In this document: piece after piece, positions 1,095 to 10,384 of the stretch
Numbering within the stretch: the first letter of the stretch is position 1
How the letters are laid out: each line of letters begins with the position of its first letter
Assembly (NCBI GenBank): GCA_015491595.1
Contig: WFVP01000214.1
Coordinates: 1 to 12,073 of the forward strand
Origin: Anaerolineales bacterium
GTDB taxonomy: Bacteria; Chloroflexota; Anaerolineae; Anaerolineales; DRMV01
DNA: 12,073 bases
Direction: 5' to 3'
Program-made: the position numbers and the translations under genes
The notes under the pieces: generated by a model
What the model was told of the DNA's origin: nothing
What the model saw: only the letters and a program-made list of their open reading frames with translations
Databases searched by the model: none

Positions 1095-1526
1095 TTACTT
1101 CAGGGTCAGCAGGTAGGCGATGAGGTCCTGCAGCTCCTGCTCGCTCAACCCGTTGTAGGCGGGCATGACGCCCTGCGGAAAGCCCTCCACCACGTAGGCG
1201 TTGGGTTCCAGCAAGGACTGCTTGAGGTACTCCGCCGCGCTCATCCCCGGCACCCGTTCGGCCGCCCGGGAACCGATGCCGGCCAGGGACGGCCCCACCA
1301 GGGTCACATCCGGCTCCAGGGAGTGGCAGGACGTGCAGCCCGCCTGTCCCGCCACCGCGGGCGCCTTGAACAGGGCCTCGCCCCGGGCAGGGTCGCCCGT
1401 GACCGTGACCTCTTCCGCGGGAGCGCCTCCCGCCGCACCCTCCTCCGCGGCCTCCTTTCCGCCACACGCGGCCAGCGTCAGGGCCGCCAAGACGAGCACA
1501 GCCAACAGGAGAACTTTGCGCATCAT
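1095..1526 (-). CDS. Mono-heme cytochrome c lipoprotein, likely electron donor to the ba3 oxidase
   Basis: A 143-residue exported c-type cytochrome. Residues 1-20 form a hydrophobic signal ending in LAA-C21, a lipobox, so the protein should be lipid-anchored on the outer face of the membrane. After a linker rich in Ala, Glu and Gly comes a class I cytochrome c domain with heme motif C64-x-x-C67-H68 and a likely axial Met121 in GVMPAY. Two adjacent ATG codons are possible; 1526 is chosen because a perfect AAGGAGGTG lies 8 bases upstream. That Shine-Dalgarno overlaps the TAA stop of the preceding fusion gene (13-base gap), so translation is probably coupled. The domain is strikingly similar to the C-terminal domain of the fusion (41 of 56 residues identical from CH to the VMP motif), which indicates duplication. 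It is the last gene of the operon. By position it probably shuttles electrons to CuA of subunit II (inference). Confidence 0.9.
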   Translation of the reverse strand: MMRKVLLLAVLVLAALTLAACGGKEAAEEGAAGGAPAEEVTVTGDPARGEALFKAPAVAGQAGCTSCHSLEPDVTLVGPSLAGIGSRAAERVPGMSAAEYLKQSLLEPNAYVVEGFPQGVMPAYNGLSEQELQDLIAYLLTLK

Positions 1527-1539
1527 GATTCGCACCTCC

Positions 1540-3885
1540 TTAAGGATTCGGTGTTGGGGTTGCCTCGGACGCATGCAACGTGAGTAAGAACGCGACCAGG
1601 TCTTGAATCTCCTCCTCGCTCAGGAACTCCCGATAGTTGGGCGGCATGACCCCCGCAGGGTAACCCGGCACCACGTAGGCGTCAGGGTCCACGATGGACT
1701 GATAAAGGTATTCTACCGCTTTCATGCCCGGAATCCTATACGCCGCTCGGTCGGCAATCCCCGCCAGGGACGGTCCCACCAGGGTCACCCCCGGTTCCAG
1801 GGAGTGGCACAACCGACAACCCGTGTTCTCCCCGGGGAGCTGCTCGAAGAACAACCGCCGTCCCCGCTCGGGGTCGCCGTCCTGGCGCTCGTCCCGGAAG
1901 TGGAAAAGGTAAATCCGCCGCGAGGTCCAGGTCTGTTCGACCTGCAACAGGCGCCAGGCCTCCCGCCCGCCCCGGGCGTCTTCCACCACCCATTCCACCC
2001 GGACTCGGTGCCATCCCGGCTCCAGGAAAATCCGCCGAAAGAGGGTAATGCGTCCCGACGCGGGAACGGCCGTGGGCCAGAAGCCCGAGAGGGTTCCATC
2101 CAGCCACAGGTAGAGCCCCGGCGCCCGGGAAGGGTCGGATGCGAGGGGCTGCGCTTTCTCCAACGGTTGCCCCAGGGTATGCGTCACCACCAGGTCCAGG
2201 GTGGCCTGCTGGGCCCAGGCGGGGCCTGGATAAGGCCACCGGTTCCCCAGGCCCACCAGGAGCAAAAGGGCCGCCCACAGGGTGAGCGCCCTTCTGGAGC
2301 CCGGACGGCGCCACCAGGAGCGTCCTGCTTCCTGACGATGCTCCGGCAACGCCGTCTCCTCCCCGGGGAACCGGTTCCCATCCGTCGCCATCCGTCGAAA
2401 TTCGCTGGGAGGCGTCCAGCGCCACCGCAGGGGAAACGCCCGCCAGCGGGCCCGCAACCAGGGTTTCCGCTCCCGGCGCAAACGGGCTTCCTCCCACCGG
2501 TTCCCGTAACGTGCGGGACAGTCCTCCGGGGGACAGCCCACCACCTCTACTTGGCCGGCTCCCTGTTCCCAGGCCAGGGCCAGGACGTCGGGATGCACGG
2601 CGGCCACGCACGAGACCTCCACGACGCGCGTGGGAACGTCCCTCGTCCCTTCCGGGACGTCGGACGTTCCCCATGCCGGGTTGTGGGCCCGATGTCGGGC
2701 GCAGGCCAGGACCACCCGCGGGGCCTGACCCTGGGCCGGTTGCGCCGCCGTTCGTATGCGGGCCCGCAGGGTTTCAGGGTCGCCCGCGCCTTCTTCTAAG
2801 GCCAAGGCATCGGTGGGACAGCTGCCGACGCATACCCCGCATCCCACACAGCGCTCCGGGTGCAACCGGGCCACCCATTGGGGCCCCGGTCCCTCCCGCG
2901 GGACCATCTCCAACGCCCCATAGGGACAATCCTGCGCGCACAATGTGCACCCGATGCAGGCATCTACCTTCAGGCGCACGGGCCGCGGACGTCTGGCAGG
3001 CCACCAGACCCAGGGAAACAGGGCGACGCCCAAGAGGAGCAGGGCCAGGACCGCGGTTCCCCAGCCGCGCCGGAGAAGGTCGGGCAGCAGGCTCAGATAA
3101 AAGACGTTGAGCGGGACGGTCTCCGGCCAGCGGGTGAAATCCCACATGGGAAGGTGCGGGACGGGCCAGAAAAGGGCCAGGAGAAGGACCCCGACGGTCA
3201 CCCACGCCCACCAGGGTCGAGGCGGCAGCCAACGAGGGCGCTGGAGATGCCGGATGTGCCACCAGTAGAGTAAGCCCAACAGCCCCGTCAGGCCCACGTG
3301 GAGGAAGAAAAGGAGCACCATGTACAGCCAGCCGTTGTTCTCCGGCGAGGGCAACAGGAAGTCCACCACCCACCGCTGCCCCCACAGGGTTCGCTGCAGG
3401 AGATGTTGCAACCCGCCATGCAGCCATTGGGCCCGCTGGTCGGCCAGCATCCAGAAACCCGTTACCCCGATGGCCCAGGTGACCGCGAGCATCCCCACGC
3501 CGGCGACCCATCCCAACCAGCGGGCTCCCTTGAAGCGATTCTGGACGAACATGCGCCAGGCATGCAACAGGGTGAACACCAGAAAAAGGTCCCCCAGATA
3601 GCGATGGGCGCTGCGCATGACCCGGCCCACCAGGTTGGCGTCCAAACCCACGATGGAGGCGTAGGACCCCTCAAAACCAAAGCGGTAGAAGAGGGTCACG
3701 TACAGCCCGGTCACGCCCAACAGCACCAGCGTGCCGAAGGCCAGGGTCCCGGTATGGTAGAACAGAAACAGCCAGGGGTCCCGCACCCAACGATACAGAG
3801 GGGCCTCCAGGCGCACCGTCATGCCTTCGAGACGGCGCAACCACGTATCGCCGTGGAAGGGGAAAGCGTGCATGTGCCGGGACAT
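1540..3885 (-). CDS. Four-part fusion: cytochrome b + 2x[4Fe-4S] ferredoxin + MvhD-like + cytochrome c
   Basis: A 781-residue protein. Residues 30-220 match the N-terminal domain of cytochrome b/b6, with bis-heme ligands H94/H108 and H196/H210, each pair 14 apart. Two further membrane helices follow at about 224-244 and 273-295. Two ferredoxin motifs come next: C310-x2-C313-x2-C316-x3-C320-P and C346-x2-C349-x2-C352-x3-C356-P. Residues 390-480 resemble the MvhD/FrhD-type hydrogenase iron-sulfur subunit, with candidate cysteines C395, C426, C451 and C456 and the GCPPEDC...GN pattern. A seventh helix (about 533-547) leads to an outside domain of beta-strand character, then cytochrome c with C690-x-x-C693-H694 and Met747. 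Positive-inside topology puts the Fe-S clusters in the cytoplasm and heme c outside. There is no Rieske or c1 gene nearby, so a role as quinol- or ferredoxin-linked reductase of cytochrome c is inferred. The start is uncertain: ATG 3885 has only a weak AGGA. An ATG at 3987 overlaps the subunit I stop as TGATG and would add 34 residues, but these would be encoded by a strongly structured, hairpin-rich stretch. Confidence 0.88.
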   Translation of the reverse strand: MSRHMHAFPFHGDTWLRRLEGMTVRLEAPLYRWVRDPWLFLFYHTGTLAFGTLVLLGVTGLYVTLFYRFGFEGSYASIVGLDANLVGRVMRSAHRYLGDLFLVFTLLHAWRMFVQNRFKGARWLGWVAGVGMLAVTWAIGVTGFWMLADQRAQWLHGGLQHLLQRTLWGQRWVVDFLLPSPENNGWLYMVLLFFLHVGLTGLLGLLYWWHIRHLQRPRWLPPRPWWAWVTVGVLLLALFWPVPHLPMWDFTRWPETVPLNVFYLSLLPDLLRRGWGTAVLALLLLGVALFPWVWWPARRPRPVRLKVDACIGCTLCAQDCPYGALEMVPREGPGPQWVARLHPERCVGCGVCVGSCPTDALALEEGAGDPETLRARIRTAAQPAQGQAPRVVLACARHRAHNPAWGTSDVPEGTRDVPTRVVEVSCVAAVHPDVLALAWEQGAGQVEVVGCPPEDCPARYGNRWEEARLRRERKPWLRARWRAFPLRWRWTPPSEFRRMATDGNRFPGEETALPEHRQEAGRSWWRRPGSRRALTLWAALLLLVGLGNRWPYPGPAWAQQATLDLVVTHTLGQPLEKAQPLASDPSRAPGLYLWLDGTLSGFWPTAVPASGRITLFRRIFLEPGWHRVRVEWVVEDARGGREAWRLLQVEQTWTSRRIYLFHFRDERQDGDPERGRRLFFEQLPGENTGCRLCHSLEPGVTLVGPSLAGIADRAAYRIPGMKAVEYLYQSIVDPDAYVVPGYPAGVMPPNYREFLSEEEIQDLVAFLLTLHASEATPTPNP

Positions 3886-3986: not shown

Positions 3987-5639
3987 TCACCACAACTTCA
4001 TCATGGGCGCGTCCACGGGCACCATGTTGGTGATGAGGTCCAGGAGGACCGGCGTATACGCCAGCACCACCAGGGCGATGGCCCCGATGACCCAAGGCCG
4101 CCAGGAATCCAGCCAGGCCGGGGTCTGCTGCGGGTCGTGCAGGGCCTCGGCGACGGGGGGCTCCACGGTGACGGGCTTCTTCGCCTTACCCCAGGCCAAG
4201 CGGGCCATGATGTAGATGTAGAGGTACAGCCCCGTGGCCAGCAAGACGCCGCCGATGGCGACCCGCAACAGCAGCCCCTGCCACTCCGGTGGGATGTAGG
4301 GCGCGTTCCCCAGGGGCGTGCGCCGCGGCGCCCCGGCCAGGCCCAGGGAGTGCAGGGCCTGGGAGAAGATGGTCATGCCGATGGCGTAGAACCAGACCTG
4401 CGCCCGGGCCACCTTCTCGGGCAGGGGTTTCCCCGTGAGGTATGGCACCAGCCAGTAGGAAATCCCCATGAAGCTCAGGGTGACGGCCGTACCCACGGTG
4501 AGGTGGAAGTGCCCCACCACCCAGGCGGAGTTGTGCAGAATCATGTTGATGTTGTAGGAAGCGTTGAGTACCCCGCCGATGCCGCCGAACATGAAGATGA
4601 GCCCGGCCAGCAGCTGGGCCGCCACCGAGGGGTCCTTCCAGGGCAGGGCCCAAATCCAGCCGAAGAGGCCCTTCCCGCCCCGCTTACGACCCGCGTACTC
4701 CAGCGAGGCCACCACGGTGAACAGGGTCATCATGGAGGGCACCACCACGGACAGGGTGAGGAGGGCGTGGATGTAGCGCCAACCCGGCGGCACGCCCGGG
4801 TCCAGGTACTGGTGATGGAAGCCCACAGGCACGGACAGGAGCAGGAAGAGCCAGAAGGCCAGGCGGGCCAGGGTGTCGCTGAACAGCTTGCCTCCCGCCT
4901 GCCGGGGCAGGTAGGCGTACCAGGAGATGTAGGCAGGCAGCAGCCAGAAGTAGACCAGAGGATGCCCGAACCACCAGAAGAGGGTCCGGGCCAGCTCCAC
5001 GTCCACCCCCTGGGTCAGGCCCATGGACCAGGGGAGCAACAGGGCCAGCACTTCCGCGGCCACTCCCAGGGTGGCCAGCTGCCACAGGATGAAGGTCAGG
5101 ACCGCGGCGAAGGCGATGAAGGGCGAACGGACTCCGGGGTTTTCCTTCTTCCAGGCGAAGAAGGTCCAGGCCAAGCCCCAGCCTTCAATCCAGGAGCCCA
5201 CCACCAGCAAAGTCAGGCCCAGGTAGAAAATCCAGGGGGCCTTGAGGGGCGGGTAGAAGGTGTACAGGACCGACGCCTGATTGGACAGAATCATGAGCGC
5301 GGCCAAAATCAGGCCCAGGGTCATGACCCAGAAGCCCGCCCAGTTCAGTTTGGCGGACTTCAGCGGTCGCTTGAGGCCGTACACCACGTTGAAGGTCAAA
5401 AAGCCCATGATAAAGTAGGTAGTCCAGATGATGGCGTTGAGCACGCCGTGGAGGGTGAGGCCCTGATAGTAACTCTTCAAGCCCAGCTTGCCCAAAAAGC
5501 CGTACAGGTCAACGCCGCCGTAGTTCAGGGCCTGAAAGAGCCCGAAGAGCCCGCCCACCGAGAGGGCCGCGACGGCGATGACCAGGTGCCAGACGACCAG
5601 TTTCTTCTCACTCCGGGGCAGTTGGAAGACCTCGGACAT
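3987..5639 (-). CDS. cbaA: ba3-type (B-family) cytochrome c oxidase subunit I
   Basis: Catalytic subunit of a heme-copper oxygen reductase that reduces O2 to water and pumps protons. The 550 residues resemble Thermus thermophilus ba3 subunit I throughout, for example YPPLKAPWIFYLGL, TLFWWFGHPLVYFWLLPAY, GFHHQYLDPG and NASYNIN. Visible ligands: H64 (low-spin heme), H226 with cross-link tyrosine Y230 (CuB), H275-H276 (CuB), and H377 and H379 in VGHFHL (active-site heme and low-spin heme). About 13 membrane helices are expected; a last one lies near residues 515-535. ATG 5639 is chosen for GGAGGG at 7-base spacing. It lies 14 bases after the subunit II stop. The IIa-II-I gene order is the same as in Thermus. 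The QTPAWLDSWRPWV stretch separates the core from the last helix. Family assignment is very strong; the true heme types (b, a or as) cannot be read from sequence, and no heme A synthesis gene is in the window. Confidence 0.96.
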   Translation of the reverse strand: MSEVFQLPRSEKKLVVWHLVIAVAALSVGGLFGLFQALNYGGVDLYGFLGKLGLKSYYQGLTLHGVLNAIIWTTYFIMGFLTFNVVYGLKRPLKSAKLNWAGFWVMTLGLILAALMILSNQASVLYTFYPPLKAPWIFYLGLTLLVVGSWIEGWGLAWTFFAWKKENPGVRSPFIAFAAVLTFILWQLATLGVAAEVLALLLPWSMGLTQGVDVELARTLFWWFGHPLVYFWLLPAYISWYAYLPRQAGGKLFSDTLARLAFWLFLLLSVPVGFHHQYLDPGVPPGWRYIHALLTLSVVVPSMMTLFTVVASLEYAGRKRGGKGLFGWIWALPWKDPSVAAQLLAGLIFMFGGIGGVLNASYNINMILHNSAWVVGHFHLTVGTAVTLSFMGISYWLVPYLTGKPLPEKVARAQVWFYAIGMTIFSQALHSLGLAGAPRRTPLGNAPYIPPEWQGLLLRVAIGGVLLATGLYLYIYIMARLAWGKAKKPVTVEPPVAEALHDPQQTPAWLDSWRPWVIGAIALVVLAYTPVLLDLITNMVPVDAPMMKLW

Positions 5640-5653
5640 AGTGGTTCCCTCCT

Positions 5654-6136
5654 TCACTTCTGGGGTGGCAGCACTTTGATGACGCCGTACATGGCCGCGT
5701 GGCCCAGCCCGCAGTACTCGGTGCAAATCATCATGTACTCGCCGGGCTCACGAAAGACGTAGGAGACCTTCCCCACGTATCCCGGCAACACCTGCATGCT
5801 CACGCTGGTGTCCACAATCTTGAACCCGTGCTGAATGTCCGCGCTGGTGATGTAGAAGGTGACCTTGGCCCCAGCCGGCACCTCAATGGTCCGGGGGACG
5901 AACTGCCAGGCCTTGGAAATCAGATAGACCTCGTACTGCTCACCGGGCACGATTTCCCGCACGCCGGGGTTGGACCACACAGGGTCCTCGTCCAGACGCG
6001 TCGGGTCCACCCGGCGCTCCAGCGTCGGGACCTGGACGCCAAAGGCAAAGGCCGCGACGCCGATGAGCACCGCGAAGGCGGCCAGCAACGCGATGCTGAT
6101 TTGAATCCAGCGCTTCTCCAGTTCGTGAATGTGCAT
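5654..6136 (-). CDS. cbaB: ba3-type cytochrome c oxidase subunit II (CuA)
   Basis: Accepts electrons from cytochrome c at the binuclear CuA centre and passes them to subunit I. The 160-residue protein has a single N-terminal membrane helix (about 12-34) and an outside cupredoxin domain. This single-helix layout fits the B family rather than the two-helix A family. CuA ligands are all present: H103 in DIQHGF, then C138, E140 (backbone ligand position), C142, H146 and M149 in ICTEYCGLGHAAM. The VDPTRLDEDPVWSNPG segment also mirrors the Thermus protein. ATG 6136 follows GAGGAGGTG closely. Gaps of 18 bases to subunit IIa and 14 to subunit I suggest coupled translation. The two upstream copper-delivery genes (SCO, PCuAC) probably load this site. 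Confidence 0.96.
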   Translation of the reverse strand: MHIHELEKRWIQISIALLAAFAVLIGVAAFAFGVQVPTLERRVDPTRLDEDPVWSNPGVREIVPGEQYEVYLISKAWQFVPRTIEVPAGAKVTFYITSADIQHGFKIVDTSVSMQVLPGYVGKVSYVFREPGEYMMICTEYCGLGHAAMYGVIKVLPPQK

Positions 6137-6308: not shown

Positions 6309-6752
6309 TTATTTGCGCACTTCCACTTCCACGGTGATGGGTTCGTGGTTGGCAAAGGTCAACGTCAGGGAAAACCGGGTGCCTTCCTCAAAGGGAACCT
6401 GCTTCCCCATGCACATGATGTGCAATCCCCCGGGTTCCAGGGAAACCGTCTCCCCCGGTGGCAACGGCACGCGGCCTCCTTCCACAGGACGCATGCCCAT
6501 GCTGCCGTCCTCTTTCTGGTAGGTCTCGTGAATCTCGGCTTTCTTGCAGGCCTCCGTCTGCACGCCCACCAGGGCATCGGCTTCGTTGCCTTCATTGCGA
6601 ATCTTCAAGTAAATCGCGCCCATCTCCACGTTCATGGGCGAAGAACGGGCCCAGGGGTCCTCCACTTTTAGCTTCGGCCCTTGGGTCGACTGGCAGGCGG
6701 CCAACCCCAATAGGGCCATTCCCAATACGAGTCCCATCATCCAACGAGCCAT
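6309..6752 (-). CDS. PCuAC-family copper chaperone lipoprotein
   Basis: Extracytoplasmic Cu(I) carrier that helps deliver copper to the CuA site of oxidase subunit II, usually together with SCO. The 147-residue protein has a lipoprotein signal with LAA-C20. The mature part is a single PCuAC (DUF461) beta-domain: WARSSP near the start, H75 in EIHETY, methionines M85 and M87, and H111-x-M113 in GGLHIMCMG. These fit the family's His/Met copper motif, although the Met that usually follows the first His is Glu76 here. C114 is an extra possible ligand. ATG 6752 has AAGGAGGAGG 5-6 bases upstream. It lies 24 bases after the SCO gene and 28 before subunit IIa, so it is cotranscribed. Confidence 0.93.
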   Translation of the reverse strand: MARWMMGLVLGMALLGLAACQSTQGPKLKVEDPWARSSPMNVEMGAIYLKIRNEGNEADALVGVQTEACKKAEIHETYQKEDGSMGMRPVEGGRVPLPPGETVSLEPGGLHIMCMGKQVPFEEGTRFSLTLTFANHEPITVEVEVRK

Positions 6753-6776: not shown

Positions 6777-7385
6777 TTATCGGCGCAGCAGGTACTTCAG
6801 GTCCGCGGCCATCTGTTCGGGCGTGATGCCGTCCGGACCAAAGGTGGGGGGAAAGATGACCTTGAGGTAGCCCTCGGGATTAATCAACAGGGTGGACGCG
6901 GTGTGCTCCACGATATACCCCGATTCCGGGGTGCCCTGGGGATAGTTGTAGAAGATGCCGTACCGGGTCGCGACCTCCCGGATATCCTCTTCCGTGCCCG
7001 TCAGCCCGATGAAGGAGGGGTGGAAATACCGCACGTATTCGGCCATGCGTTCGGGCGTATCCCGTTTGGGGTCCACGGAAATCATGATGACCTGCAGTTT
7101 CTCCCCGTCCCTGCCCAGCAAATCCATCACGCGGGCCAGGTCGGCCAGGGTGGTGGGACAGACGTCCGGGCAGTGGGTGTATCCGAAGAAGAGCAGCACC
7201 CACTTGCCCCGGAAGTCGCTCAGGCGCACCGGGCCCTCGGCCGAGGTCAGCTCGAAGTCGTACGCCGGCTCCGGGGACTGAAGGACCGTGCCCGCGAAAC
7301 GATGGGGACGGAACCTCCAGAAGAGCCATCCGCCCGCCGCGAGCACCACGACCAGCAAGGCCAAGAACTTCCAAGAGCGTTGCAT
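6777..7385 (-). CDS. SCO1/SenC family copper-delivery protein
   Basis: Membrane-anchored thioredoxin-fold protein that binds copper and/or reduces the CuA cysteines of oxidase subunit II. The 202 residues comprise an N-terminal anchor helix (about 7-23) and an outside domain with the metal-binding motif C72-P-D-V-C76-P. The third copper ligand is H161 in VEHTAS. All three canonical ligands are present, so it should be a genuine copper protein. Two ATGs are adjacent (7388 and 7385). The second is preferred because GGAGG lies 6 bases upstream rather than 3; the difference is one residue. It follows the Rrf2 regulator gene by about 20 bases and precedes PCuAC by 24. Confidence 0.95.
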   Translation of the reverse strand: MQRSWKFLALLVVVLAAGGWLFWRFRPHRFAGTVLQSPEPAYDFELTSAEGPVRLSDFRGKWVLLFFGYTHCPDVCPTTLADLARVMDLLGRDGEKLQVIMISVDPKRDTPERMAEYVRYFHPSFIGLTGTEEDIREVATRYGIFYNYPQGTPESGYIVEHTASTLLINPEGYLKVIFPPTFGPDGITPEQMAADLKYLLRR

Positions 7386-7406
7386 CATCGTCCTCCTTCG
7401 TCCACT

Positions 7407-7874
7407 TCAGGGGGTTTGGGCGCCGTCGGCGCCTGGATCCGGGGGCAGGGCGAACATGGACGCCTGGGCCTCCTGCACCAGTTCGGCAAAGGTGACCCCT
7501 TCCAGTTCTTCCTGAATCAAGTGTTGAATCCGGGCCCACCGACGACGCACCGGACAGGTCGGTGCAAAGGGGCAGGAGCCGGGATGGTCCACGCATTCCG
7601 AGACCTGGGGCGGCCGGTCCACCGCCACCACCACATCCCACAGGGTGATGTCCTCCGGGTCGTGGGCCAGCTCGACCCCTCCCCCCGCCCCGGGGTAGGT
7701 GCGAATCAGTCGAGCCCGGGCCAGCTCCTTGAGGAGGCTGTAGAGCATGGGCAGTGGAATGAGCATGTCCTCGCTCAATTGTTGGGCCGAGACCCGGGTC
7801 CCCGCGGGATACTTGGCCAGCCCCAAGATGACCCGGACGGCGTAATCCGTTCGACGATTGATCAAGAAGTGCAT
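7407..7874 (-). CDS. Rrf2-family transcriptional regulator with three cluster-type cysteines
   Basis: A 155-residue winged-helix regulator, first gene of the oxidase operon. The N-terminus INRRTDYAVRVILGLA, the SAQQLSEDMLIPLPMLYSLLKEL helix-turn-helix region (29-51) and the wing YPGAGGGVELA (60-70) are typical of Rrf2. Cysteines C94, C101 and C107 form C-x6-C-x5-C, the place where IscR, NsrR and RsrR hold an Fe-S cluster; IscR and NsrR commonly have x5-x5, so this spacing is slightly different. Family knowledge suggests it senses O2, NO or iron-sulfur status and probably controls its own operon. A dyad over the predicted transcription start (7909-7925) is a possible target. ATG 7874 has a weak GGAG at 8-9 bases. 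The C-terminal tail after about residue 135 is low in recognisable features. Confidence 0.92.
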   Translation of the reverse strand: MHFLINRRTDYAVRVILGLAKYPAGTRVSAQQLSEDMLIPLPMLYSLLKELARARLIRTYPGAGGGVELAHDPEDITLWDVVVAVDRPPQVSECVDHPGSCPFAPTCPVRRRWARIQHLIQEELEGVTFAELVQEAQASMFALPPDPGADGAQTP

Positions 7875-7992: not shown

Positions 7993-8691
7993 TTATGGGG
8001 CGTAACACAGGAACAGATGGGCGGCTTCGTACGCGAGCTTGGCCGCGCCGCGGCTGTTTTGGATTTCCCGGGCCAGAACGCCGAAATGCCGCAGGATACG
8101 GTCCCGCGTGGAGACCACCGTTTCGTACTTGTATTCCCCGCGGATGATGCCCCACCCGTCCACCAGGATGTACCGGGGGTCGAACCGAATGGTGCCGTCG
8201 GGCTGGGGCTCGTAATACACCTGGAACCCCGCGCCCACGTAGGTCTTCAGGACCTCAGGGTCGGGATGGGTGACGAAGTACCACGTCTTGCCGGTGCGGG
8301 CTTTCATCTCCCGGGCGTAAGCCTGCAAGACCTCGGGGGTGTCCCGCGCCGGATCCAGGGAAACCACCACAAAGGCCACGGGAATGGTCGCCTGTCGCAT
8401 CTCCGGCACCTGGTCCAGGTGCCGCGCCACGTATTCCATGGTGGGCAGGATGTCGAAACAAGGGTCCGGGCAATGGCTGTACCAAAAGGTAAACAGCACC
8501 ACCTGGCCTCGCAGAGCTTCGCTGCTCAAAGGAGTCCCCCGGTGGTCCACCATCTGAAAGCCCGGCGCCAGGCGCACCCGGGGGAGCACCTGCACGGGCT
8601 GGAACACCTTGAAGGCCACCGCGCCCAAAAACACCGCGCCGATCACGGCGTACGCCACATACCAGAAGAGGGAAACCCGTCGAGATGACAT
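7993..8691 (-). CDS. Second SCO/SenC-like membrane protein, lacking the canonical copper histidine
   Basis: A 232-residue SCO-family thioredoxin-fold protein. It has an N-terminal anchor helix (about 8-28), the motif C74-P-D-P-C78 in YSHCPDPCF, and the family stretch VVVSLDPARDTPEVL (108-122). When ILVDGWG (175-181) is aligned with LLINPEG of the neighbouring SCO, the conserved copper histidine (H161 there) falls on F170, followed by D171. The third ligand is therefore missing, and the protein may act as a thiol-disulfide reductase for CuA or another periplasmic target rather than as a copper carrier. A C-terminal extension (about 205-232) ends in a hydrophobic stretch, AAHLFLCYAP. ATG 8691 lacks a clear Shine-Dalgarno. 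It lies 118 bases before the Rrf2 gene and has its own promoter with the same activator site. Confidence 0.9.
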   Translation of the reverse strand: MSSRRVSLFWYVAYAVIGAVFLGAVAFKVFQPVQVLPRVRLAPGFQMVDHRGTPLSSEALRGQVVLFTFWYSHCPDPCFDILPTMEYVARHLDQVPEMRQATIPVAFVVVSLDPARDTPEVLQAYAREMKARTGKTWYFVTHPDPEVLKTYVGAGFQVYYEPQPDGTIRFDPRYILVDGWGIIRGEYKYETVVSTRDRILRHFGVLAREIQNSRGAAKLAYEAAHLFLCYAP

Positions 8692-8787: not shown

Positions 8788-8962
8788 TGTTTCCCGTTTC
8801 CCTTGAGAAGCCCGGCCCGGGCCCGGGTATGCTTTACTTGTCCCGCGACCCCGGAAGGCGTCCGGGGTACGGTCAGGCACACTGGGAGGAGCCGTATGCC
8901 TTGGACGACGCGGTTCTTCGCCCCCTTTGCTTCCCTTCCCGGCCCGCATCCCCGCGCTTTTG

Positions 8963-8994
8963 CCCCTTGGCAAGGGGGGTCTAACCGTTATAAT
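8963..8994 (+). promoter_or_regulatory. Strong sigma70-type promoter of the reductase gene
   Basis: -35 TTGGCA (8967-8972, 5 of 6 consensus), 16-base spacer, -10 TATAAT (8989-8994, perfect). The start would be near 9001, with a 34-base leader ending in a GGGAGGTGG Shine-Dalgarno. The -35 lies inside a dyad, CCCCTT-GGC-AAGGGG (8963-8977), a possible operator. Together they suggest high expression, perhaps with repression. Confidence 0.75.
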
Positions 8995-9034
8995 CGGAAA
9001 GAACAAAACACAAGCAGATTTCGGGAGGTGGAAC

Positions 9035-10384
9035 ATGGCAGCCAAGGGTTACCTGGTGGCCGTCATCGGCGCCGGGCCAGCAGGGCTGTACGCGGCACGG
9101 GCACTGGCACAGAAAGGTGCGCGCGTGGTGGTCTTCAATCGCGACATCAAGCCCGGGGGTCTGGCGGAATACGGCATCTACCATGACAAGCACAAGATGA
9201 AGGAAGGGCTGCGCAAGCAATTCCAGCGCATCCTGGAGATGCCGGGCGTCACCTACCTGGGCAACATCGCCGTAGGTCAGCAAGGCGACCTGACCCTGGA
9301 CGATTTGCGAGACCTGGGCTTCCAGGCCATTTTGGTGACCACGGGCGCGCAGGGGACGAAGTCCCTGGGCCTTCCCGGTGAGGACCTGGAAGGCGTATAC
9401 CACGCCAAGGAAATCGTCTACCACTACAACCTGCTGCCCCCCTTCAGCCAGCAAACCTTCGCCATCGGGCGACGGGTGGGCATCATCGGTGTGGGCAACG
9501 TCATGGCCGACATCGCCACCTATCTGGTCAAGGAACTCAAAGTGGACGAGGTCTACGCCATCGCCCGCCGGGGGCCCTTCGAGGTGAAGTTCGACAAGAA
9601 GGAATTCAAGCGCTTCGCCCGCAACCTGGACGTGGAGGACTTCGAGAAAGAGATTGAGCGCATCGCCGAGCGCCTGCGCAAGGTGGGACAGGACCCCGAG
9701 GAAGCCAAAGCCCACATCCTGAGCATGGCCGAAGGCGCGCCGGAGACCGGGTCCCCCACGGTGTTCCGCTTCCGCTTCCTCTCTTCCCCCAAACGCATCC
9801 TGGGCGACGAACACGGTCGGGTGAAGGCCCTGGAGCTGGAAGACACGGAACTGGTGCTGGAAAACGGCCGCACCAAGGCCAAGAAGCTGGGTACCACGTA
9901 CACCCTGGACGTGGACACGGTGATTTTCTCCATCGGCGACCGGGTGGACCCCAACTTTGGCCTGCCCCTGGAATGGAACGCCTACGCCACCAACCCCAAC
10001 CCCCGGTTCCCGGTGGACGGCGTCTCCTACGAGGCCTACGACCCCGAGAAGGGCGAGCCCATCGAGGGCATCTTTGTGGCCGGCTGGGCCCGCCAGCCCA
10101 GCACGGGCCTGGTGGGCACGGCCCGCAAGGACGGCGAGAACGCGGCGGACGCCCTGTGGCAGTACCTGAAGACCCTGGAGCCCGCGGATATCGACGTGGA
10201 CGCCGTGGTGGCCCAGATTCGCGCCAAGGTGAGCAAGCCCCTGGTCACCCAGGAGGACCTCAAGCGCCTGGCCGAAGCCGAGAAGGCCGAGGCTGAGAAG
10301 CGGGGCGTGCCTTACTTCAAGTTCGACTCCAACGAGGCCATGCTCCAGGTCATGGGCCTGTTGCCCGTGTCCACGGGGGACTAA
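9035..10384 (+). CDS. Adrenodoxin-reductase-type ferredoxin/NADP+ oxidoreductase (FprA-like, FAD)
   Basis: Flavoprotein that exchanges electrons between NAD(P)H and ferredoxin. The 449 residues are close in length to mycobacterial FprA. Residues 12-17 GAGPAG form the FAD dinucleotide fold, followed by GGLAEYGI (41-48), typical of this family and of glutamate synthase small subunits. The NADPH fold has G152-V-G-N-V-M-A-D159, and R178-R179 match the usual contacts to the 2'-phosphate, so NADPH is the likely cofactor. The second FAD contact GWARQPSTGLVGTARKDG (350-367) is the family's C-terminal signature. The last 70 residues form a charged helical extension. There are no Fe-S motifs and no membrane segment, so it should be a soluble cytoplasmic protein. 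ATG 9035 is chosen for GGAGGTGG and the promoter at 8967-8994; an upstream ATG at 8927 lies before that promoter. A link to the ferredoxin domains of the nearby fusion is only inference. Confidence 0.85.
   Translation: MAAKGYLVAVIGAGPAGLYAARALAQKGARVVVFNRDIKPGGLAEYGIYHDKHKMKEGLRKQFQRILEMPGVTYLGNIAVGQQGDLTLDDLRDLGFQAILVTTGAQGTKSLGLPGEDLEGVYHAKEIVYHYNLLPPFSQQTFAIGRRVGIIGVGNVMADIATYLVKELKVDEVYAIARRGPFEVKFDKKEFKRFARNLDVEDFEKEIERIAERLRKVGQDPEEAKAHILSMAEGAPETGSPTVFRFRFLSSPKRILGDEHGRVKALELEDTELVLENGRTKAKKLGTTYTLDVDTVIFSIGDRVDPNFGLPLEWNAYATNPNPRFPVDGVSYEAYDPEKGEPIEGIFVAGWARQPSTGLVGTARKDGENAADALWQYLKTLEPADIDVDAVVAQIRAKVSKPLVTQEDLKRLAEAEKAEAEKRGVPYFKFDSNEAMLQVMGLLPVSTGD

Follow-up and report, generated by a model that had tools for sequence, protein, structure and literature searches.

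The fusion gene and its operon

Within the window, by which we mean the whole 12,073-nucleotide stretch of Anaerolineales DNA analyzed here (assembly GCA_015491595.1, contig WFVP01000214.1), a long open reading frame lies on the minus strand, with its ATG at 3885, its last sense codon at 1543 and its stop at 1540-1542. Four Pfam families match the product above their cut-offs: Cytochrome_B (residues 39-205), Fer4_7 (310-360), FlpD (418-504) and Cytochrom_C (673-770). The first-pass annotation had proposed these modules in this order, and every cofactor residue that it named is in place: the heme b histidines H94/H108 and H196/H210, eight ferredoxin cysteines between 310 and 356, the FlpD cysteines 395, 426, 451 and 456, and C690-x2-C693-H694 with M747 for heme c. 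It also placed the gene between the oxidase and a cytochrome c, and the direct neighbors are indeed genes for an oxidase subunit I and a cytochrome c; the annotation named no strand, and all three genes lie on the same one. The features are as follows.

1095..1526, minus strand: small cytochrome c with a lipoprotein-like signal, next downstream of the fusion (Pfam Cytochrom_C; start and signal are our reading)
1543..3885, minus strand: cytochrome b - 2[4Fe-4S] - FlpD - TM - beta domain - heme c fusion, 781 residues (Pfam, homologue alignment, AlphaFold2)
1567..1881, minus strand: its c-type cytochrome domain, residues 669-773, with C690xxCH694 and M747 (Pfam)
1882..2220, minus strand: its outer beta domain, residues 556-668, H569 mostly kept (alignment; separate gene in Defluviimonas)
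2245..2304, minus strand: its seventh helix, residues 528-547 (AlphaFold2 model)
2365..2718, minus strand: its FlpD/MvhD-like module, residues 390-507, cysteines 395, 426, 451 and 456 (Pfam FlpD; cysteines conserved)
2791..2979, minus strand: its ferredoxin module, residues 303-365, eight cysteines for two [4Fe-4S] clusters (Pfam Fer4_7; cysteines conserved)
2986..3786, minus strand: its bc-type cytochrome b, residues 34-300, six membrane helices A-F, heme b ligands H94/H108 and H196/H210
3987..5639, minus strand: heme-copper oxidase subunit I of the O2-reductase type, GHPLVY, HH and HxH intact (Pfam COX1, E 7e-96; start is our reading)
5654..6136, minus strand: CuA subunit II, CTEYCGLGHAAM (Pfam COX2; motif)
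6309..6752, minus strand: PCu(A)C copper chaperone (Pfam)
6777..7388, minus strand: SCO1/SenC protein (Pfam)
7407..7874, minus strand: Rrf2-family regulator (Pfam)
7993..8691, minus strand: second SCO1/SenC protein (Pfam)
8927-10384, plus strand: divergent FAD/NAD(P) oxidoreductase, related to glutamate synthase small subunits

The oxidase, which we take to be a B-family heme-copper O2 reductase, possesses the HPxVY tyrosine, HH, HxH and the CuA ligands. The heme c domain of the fusion is 61% identical to the small cytochrome c encoded downstream. The divergent flavoprotein is about 30% identical to flavoproteins of the Rieske gene sets described below and may be a partner of the fusion.

An AlphaFold2 model of the fusion (97-sequence alignment; mean pLDDT 92.2, pTM 0.90) matches bc1 cytochrome b and places the Fe-S block in an inner loop, after helix F. 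As predicted in the first-pass annotation, a single intact polypeptide is modeled with its Fe-S modules inside, its b hemes within the membrane and heme c on the outer side. With helix borders taken from the model, the inner loops hold more K+R than D+E, and the outer loops do not. We infer that the protein is loaded with these cofactors and lies in the membrane of the cell in this orientation. The modeled seventh helix probably stands where helix G of bc1 cytochrome b would be; 28 of 50 structural matches align on to residues 553-557, paired with the 326-363 region of the matched chain, while the alignment ends earlier in the other 22, the top eight included. By profile, GYWLIWD aligns with GYLLPWD of a Rieske-type cytochrome b. 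The cd region of the outer quinone pocket aligns by profile, helices E-F align by structure only, and the likening of the D260 region to PEWY is our own reading. Residues 375-510 match MvhD or MvhD-related PDB chains at E 4e-4 to 2e-3; the beta domain has no Pfam match at E up to 5 and no clear PDB fold match.

Conservation and gene neighborhoods of the family

How widespread is this architecture? In a protein search with the fusion, 7995 candidates were scored and 172 of them match at E <= 0.001; a second search, with the genome's own paralogue, gave 243 out of 7998 (the best 120 listed in each case). We retrieved 241 sequences, and the 237 with at least 640 residues entered the ligand count. 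A CxxCH motif follows residue 500 in 114 of them, of which 113 are distinct (P0001 and P0002 are identical), and heme c is absent from the other 123. Within the heme-c group, H94 and H108 are kept in 112 sequences (the other two rows are gapped) and H196 and H210 in all 114; seven of the eight ferredoxin cysteines are invariant, C349 is found in 113, and the four FlpD cysteines are kept in 114 of 114. C690, C693 and H694 are present in all 114, CxxCH being the selection rule itself, and M747 in 112. The 123 homologues lacking heme c all keep the heme b ligands and show few losses among the Fe-S ligands, the lowest being C451 (112) and the next C456 (118). H569 of the beta domain occurs in 111 of the 114 and in 110 of the 123. 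In the quinone pocket, D149 is present in 237 of 237 rows, and position 260 is D in 226 and N in 11; W148 and D260, the residues of most relatives, are replaced in the window protein by A and N. That the frame was joined by an assembly error, a risk raised in the first-pass annotation, or arose by chance is as good as ruled out by the 113 distinct homologous sequences, which share its module order.

Among the matches listed, the source names of heme-c members include Chloroflexi, Anaerolineae, Caldilineales, Actinomycetota and Acidimicrobiia. A survey of 298 genomes of the window's class scored three candidates per genome, so that its counts are lower bounds: at least 54 genomes match at E <= 1e-40 over a region that includes the cytochrome b part, and in at least 20 of these the match reaches through heme c. 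The full order was found in a second MAG (L006; 59% identity in the best segment; a short piece of its DNA is unread) and in 19 more genomes of this survey. In a sample of the phylum, 9 of 201 genomes match at the same threshold, all within the window's class. On a quick, midpoint-rooted tree of 88 core sequences (42 loci, every fifth retrieved protein and P0001), the presence of heme c (42 rows) requires two changes against a shuffled mean of 29.4; these could be, for example, two gains or a gain plus a loss.

Clustering of gene neighborhoods took in 42 loci: 21 with heme c (the window, L006 and 19 others with the full order) and 21 without it, the latter picked by hand, not at random, from the 43 remaining strong match rows of the class survey. 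At the 21 heme-c loci, and on the same strand, a subunit I gene lies directly upstream in 19, a CuA subunit nearby in 17 and a small cytochrome c directly downstream in 16. The two without subunit I are L048, whose contig has none, and L023, at a contig end. The subunit I family is present at 38 of the 42 loci; at the heme-c-less ones it lies nearby on the same strand in 18 of 21 (10 of the 12 without eNOR, 8 of the 9 with it), is on the other strand at L069, and was not found in the stretch fetched for L058 and L066. The 38 subunit I sequences read GHPLVY (27) or GHPAQQ (9), two being truncated there. All 18 heme-c-locus oxidases complete in that region have GHPLVY, and one more, at L006, is truncated. 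Replacement of Tyr by Gln has been described as a mark of eNOR (PMC8756737), and eNOR-type NO reductases stand at 9 of the 21 heme-c-less loci. Common to the studied loci is a CuA heme-copper reductase outside, together with a fusion-type conduit.

Other genes recur in these neighborhoods. SCO is found at 8 of 21 heme-c loci and at 6 of 12 heme-c-less loci without eNOR; nearby on the same strand, the nine eNOR loci have a CopA-type ATPase in seven cases and a DsbD_2 protein in five. Four of the 12 heme-c-less loci without eNOR carry both Rieske-type cytochrome b genes and a Rieske gene on the same strand within 9 kb, together with the FAD-Fer4 flavoprotein gene, and a fifth has a Rieske gene at the contig edge. 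Among the heme-c loci, L042 alone is followed, some way downstream, by a Rieske set. Rieske/cytochrome b sets near the fusion family at L042, L056, L058, L059 and L061 (gene clusters 14, 15, 16, 11 and 12) include a GltD-type flavoprotein with ferredoxin domains and a c-type cytochrome (one representative of each), and are similar to the complexes linked to NAD(P) that have been proposed for anammox bacteria. At 11 loci, either the heme-c fusion or its cytochrome c has as neighbor a small lipoprotein-like protein (L037:6799-7254, minus strand; gene cluster 6), one representative of which has no Pfam match at E <= 1e-5.

Outside the Chloroflexota, the plasmid of the alphaproteobacterium Defluviimonas sp. 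SAOS-178_SWC (L081:9828-15946) encodes, in order, the CuA subunit II, eNOR, heme o synthase, SCO, a b-Fe-S protein and a TM-beta-domain protein, followed by hemerythrin. Its subunit I, annotated as a cbb3-type oxidase, has the motif GHSSQQ. The b-Fer4-FlpD protein (526 residues) shares 33% identity with the window protein along residues 66-506 of the latter, whose TM-beta-domain part aligns with the product of a gene of its own, 172 residues long and with its own TM. The split genes thus mark a module border of the fusion, and the operon ties the core to an eNOR-type gene outside the phylum. A third search, with this Defluviimonas protein, gave 4427 matches among 7999 scored, whose architecture need not be common to all; nearly all of the best 120 carry cytochrome b, Fer4 and FlpD domains (P0310 has no FlpD call), so that alphaproteobacteria commonly carry the three-part core.

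At L069, a multicopper gene resembling NirK stands beside eNOR. An eNOR gene in an operon with NirK has been described (PMC4653789), and partly because of this agreement L069 is very probably Ardenticatena maritima. The paralogue in the window's own genome (L054, contig C7) has no heme c and is without one cysteine of the first ferredoxin cluster; it adjoins an eNOR-type subunit I, a CopA-type ATPase and a DsbD_2 protein.

Proposed electron transfer across the membrane and its alternatives

What might such a protein do? It probably carries electrons across the membrane for oxygen-reducing enzymes, and the reading we favor, tentatively, is that of a dedicated transmembrane carrier for the neighboring B-family CuA oxidase, with a donor and a direction that we infer. 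The cytochrome b core would hold two [4Fe-4S] clusters and the FlpD [2Fe-2S]-type module in its inner loop, and the beta domain and heme c would lie outside. A putative soluble low-potential donor would dock at FlpD, from whose [2Fe-2S] cluster electrons would pass through the two [4Fe-4S] clusters, heme bH and heme bL to heme c, and then through the small cytochrome c and CuA to O2. Those relatives that keep the outer quinone pocket may also take up electrons from quinol there. In relatives lacking heme c, the same core, paired with an O2 reductase or an eNOR NO reductase, would hand its electrons to a separate acceptor.

We favor the carrier because the ligands are conserved in the 114 heme-c homologues, because the fold is of the bc1 type with the Fe-S block after helix F and positive inner loops, and because oxidase and cytochrome c genes directly flank the fusion at most heme-c loci. 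Further grounds are the likeness between the built-in heme c and the downstream cytochrome c, the O2-reductase motif in every complete heme-c-locus oxidase, and the intact cysteines of FlpD, an electron-entry module in known complexes. Against it, inside-to-outside electron flow would cost membrane potential, and the outer quinone pocket, partly kept in most relatives, suggests quinol over a pure wire. Some relatives, moreover, lie near a Rieske/b set and others among assembly factors.

The cytoplasmic partner is a further difficulty: genome comparisons revealed none, and in many carriers HdrA/MvhD partners were not found. In 11 of 20 carrier genomes, some of them incomplete but five of these 11 at least 92% complete, FlpD was found only inside the fusion or its paralogue. 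Among 13 genomes searched, near-full HdrA was found in seven, and not in the window's own (81% complete) or the five others. A hydrogenase or heterodisulfide reductase partner of the methanogen type, suggested in the first-pass annotation, therefore seems not to be required.

Could the fusion instead help to build the reductase? CcoG/FixG is the assembly reductase of cbb3 oxidases, and a comparable protein would send electrons out of the cytoplasm, reducing Cu(II) or thiols during assembly of the copper centers of the neighboring reductase; heme c would have been added in one branch. We consider this unlikely, although it ranks next after the carrier. It would suit the CopA-type ATPase, DsbD_2 and SCO genes counted above, the occurrence of the family with both NO and O2 reductases, and the Defluviimonas gene order, which resembles fixGHIS. 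FixG, however, is not known to have b hemes. The fusion has no FixH match in Pfam and no FixG_C match at E up to 1 (whole protein) or 5 (TM and beta domain) in searches whose HMMER filters drop most weak matches, and the heme-c branch is directly adjoined by subunit I and cytochrome c, not by CopA.

Ranked third, and improbable in our judgment, is quinol bifurcation in one chain without a Rieske protein. Menaquinol would be oxidized at the outer pocket, one electron passing through heme c to the oxidase and the other through the b hemes to the Fe-S block, where the Fe-S/FlpD arm would make low-potential reductant for metabolism inside; in relatives, the NO reductase would be fed. The bc1 fold, the GYWLIWD alignment and the retention of D149 and D260 in the family are consistent with this, as are the Rieske/b sets with an NAD(P)H-type flavoprotein that class genomes hold beside the fusion family. 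PMC12954380 describes NAD(P)-linked Rieske/b complexes, with a proposed bifurcation logic, in anammox bacteria. Yet the fusion has no Rieske protein or other gate, the heme-c-less relatives have no high-potential acceptor, and the window protein itself departs from most relatives at A148 and N260.

A plain quinol:cytochrome c reductase, feeding the oxidase and using its Fe-S block for regulation or structure, seems less probable again. The cytochrome b fold, heme c and oxidase operon would suit it; the 12 Fe-S cysteines, almost invariant in heme-c members, would not, and the genome already possesses Alternative Complex III. As the first-pass annotation had noted, no Rieske or Alternative Complex III gene shows in the window, judged by Rieske and NrfD matches, but the latter's operon lies on another contig (L075) and comprises NrfD and ActD, components of the molybdopterin and Fer4 types, one cytochrome with five hemes and others with a single heme. 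All NrfD matches of the genome are on contigs other than the window's. NrfD-family genes occur in 20 of 20 heme-c genomes, inspection having covered the window's own genome and L078-L080, the latter by ORF list alone. Rieske (PF00355) has no match in the window's genome (81% complete), window included, and none at E <= 0.001 in 8 of 20 carrier genomes.

The fusion points to a large and apparently uncharacterized family in which a bc-type cytochrome b carries a cytoplasmic Fe-S insert and which is linked to O2 and eNOR-type NO reductases. Whether its members feed these reductases, help to build them or use them to drive low-potential chemistry, their role would fill a gap: how such reductases, one of them making N2O, obtain electrons or copper.

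Comparison with known systems

Cytochrome b of the bc1/b6f complexes resembles the fusion in helices A-F, in the 14-residue spacing of the heme histidines on both helices and in the GYxLxWD region, and a G-like helix is probably common to both. The fusion differs by the Fe-S/FlpD block in its inner loop, by the beta domain and heme c on the same chain, and by its occurrence in a genome with no Rieske match. From Alternative Complex III it has no NrfD-type ActC, ActB or pentaheme ActA domain, as judged by Pfam. The ferredoxin and MvhD-like C-terminal part of HdrA2 (574-765) matches fusion residues 305-507 at E 1.4e-19; unlike HdrA2, the fusion is without the flavin part of HdrA (69.7 bits, the cut-off being 1100) and is joined to a cytochrome b. 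It shares the FlpD/MvhD module with HdrABC-MvhADG, for whose HdrA no near-full counterpart was found in the fusion's genome (81% complete).

In the anammox NAD(P)-linked Rieske/cytochrome b complexes, as presented in PMC12954380, cytochrome b is likewise tied to a cytoplasmic redox module, but these complexes have Rieske proteins and NAD(P) oxidoreductase subunits, unlike the fusion. The first-pass annotation knew of no characterized protein with the four-part order. Our literature search, with most subscription journals outside its scope, found no functional study of the fusion; the four-part set itself, however, had already been listed. Heme-c-less relatives beside eNOR or O2 reductases (source names "hydrogenase iron-sulfur subunit", "4Fe-4S dicluster domain-containing protein" and "cytochrome b N-terminal domain-containing protein") have the same core and mostly the beta domain too, without heme c. 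In appendix Table A3 of a 2022 paper (PMC8756737), RME88945.1 is a single ORF with cytochrome b6, DMSOR-beta-like, FlpD and C1 cytochrome c domains, and by that domain listing, rather than by sequence comparison, it has the same four kinds of domain as the fusion.
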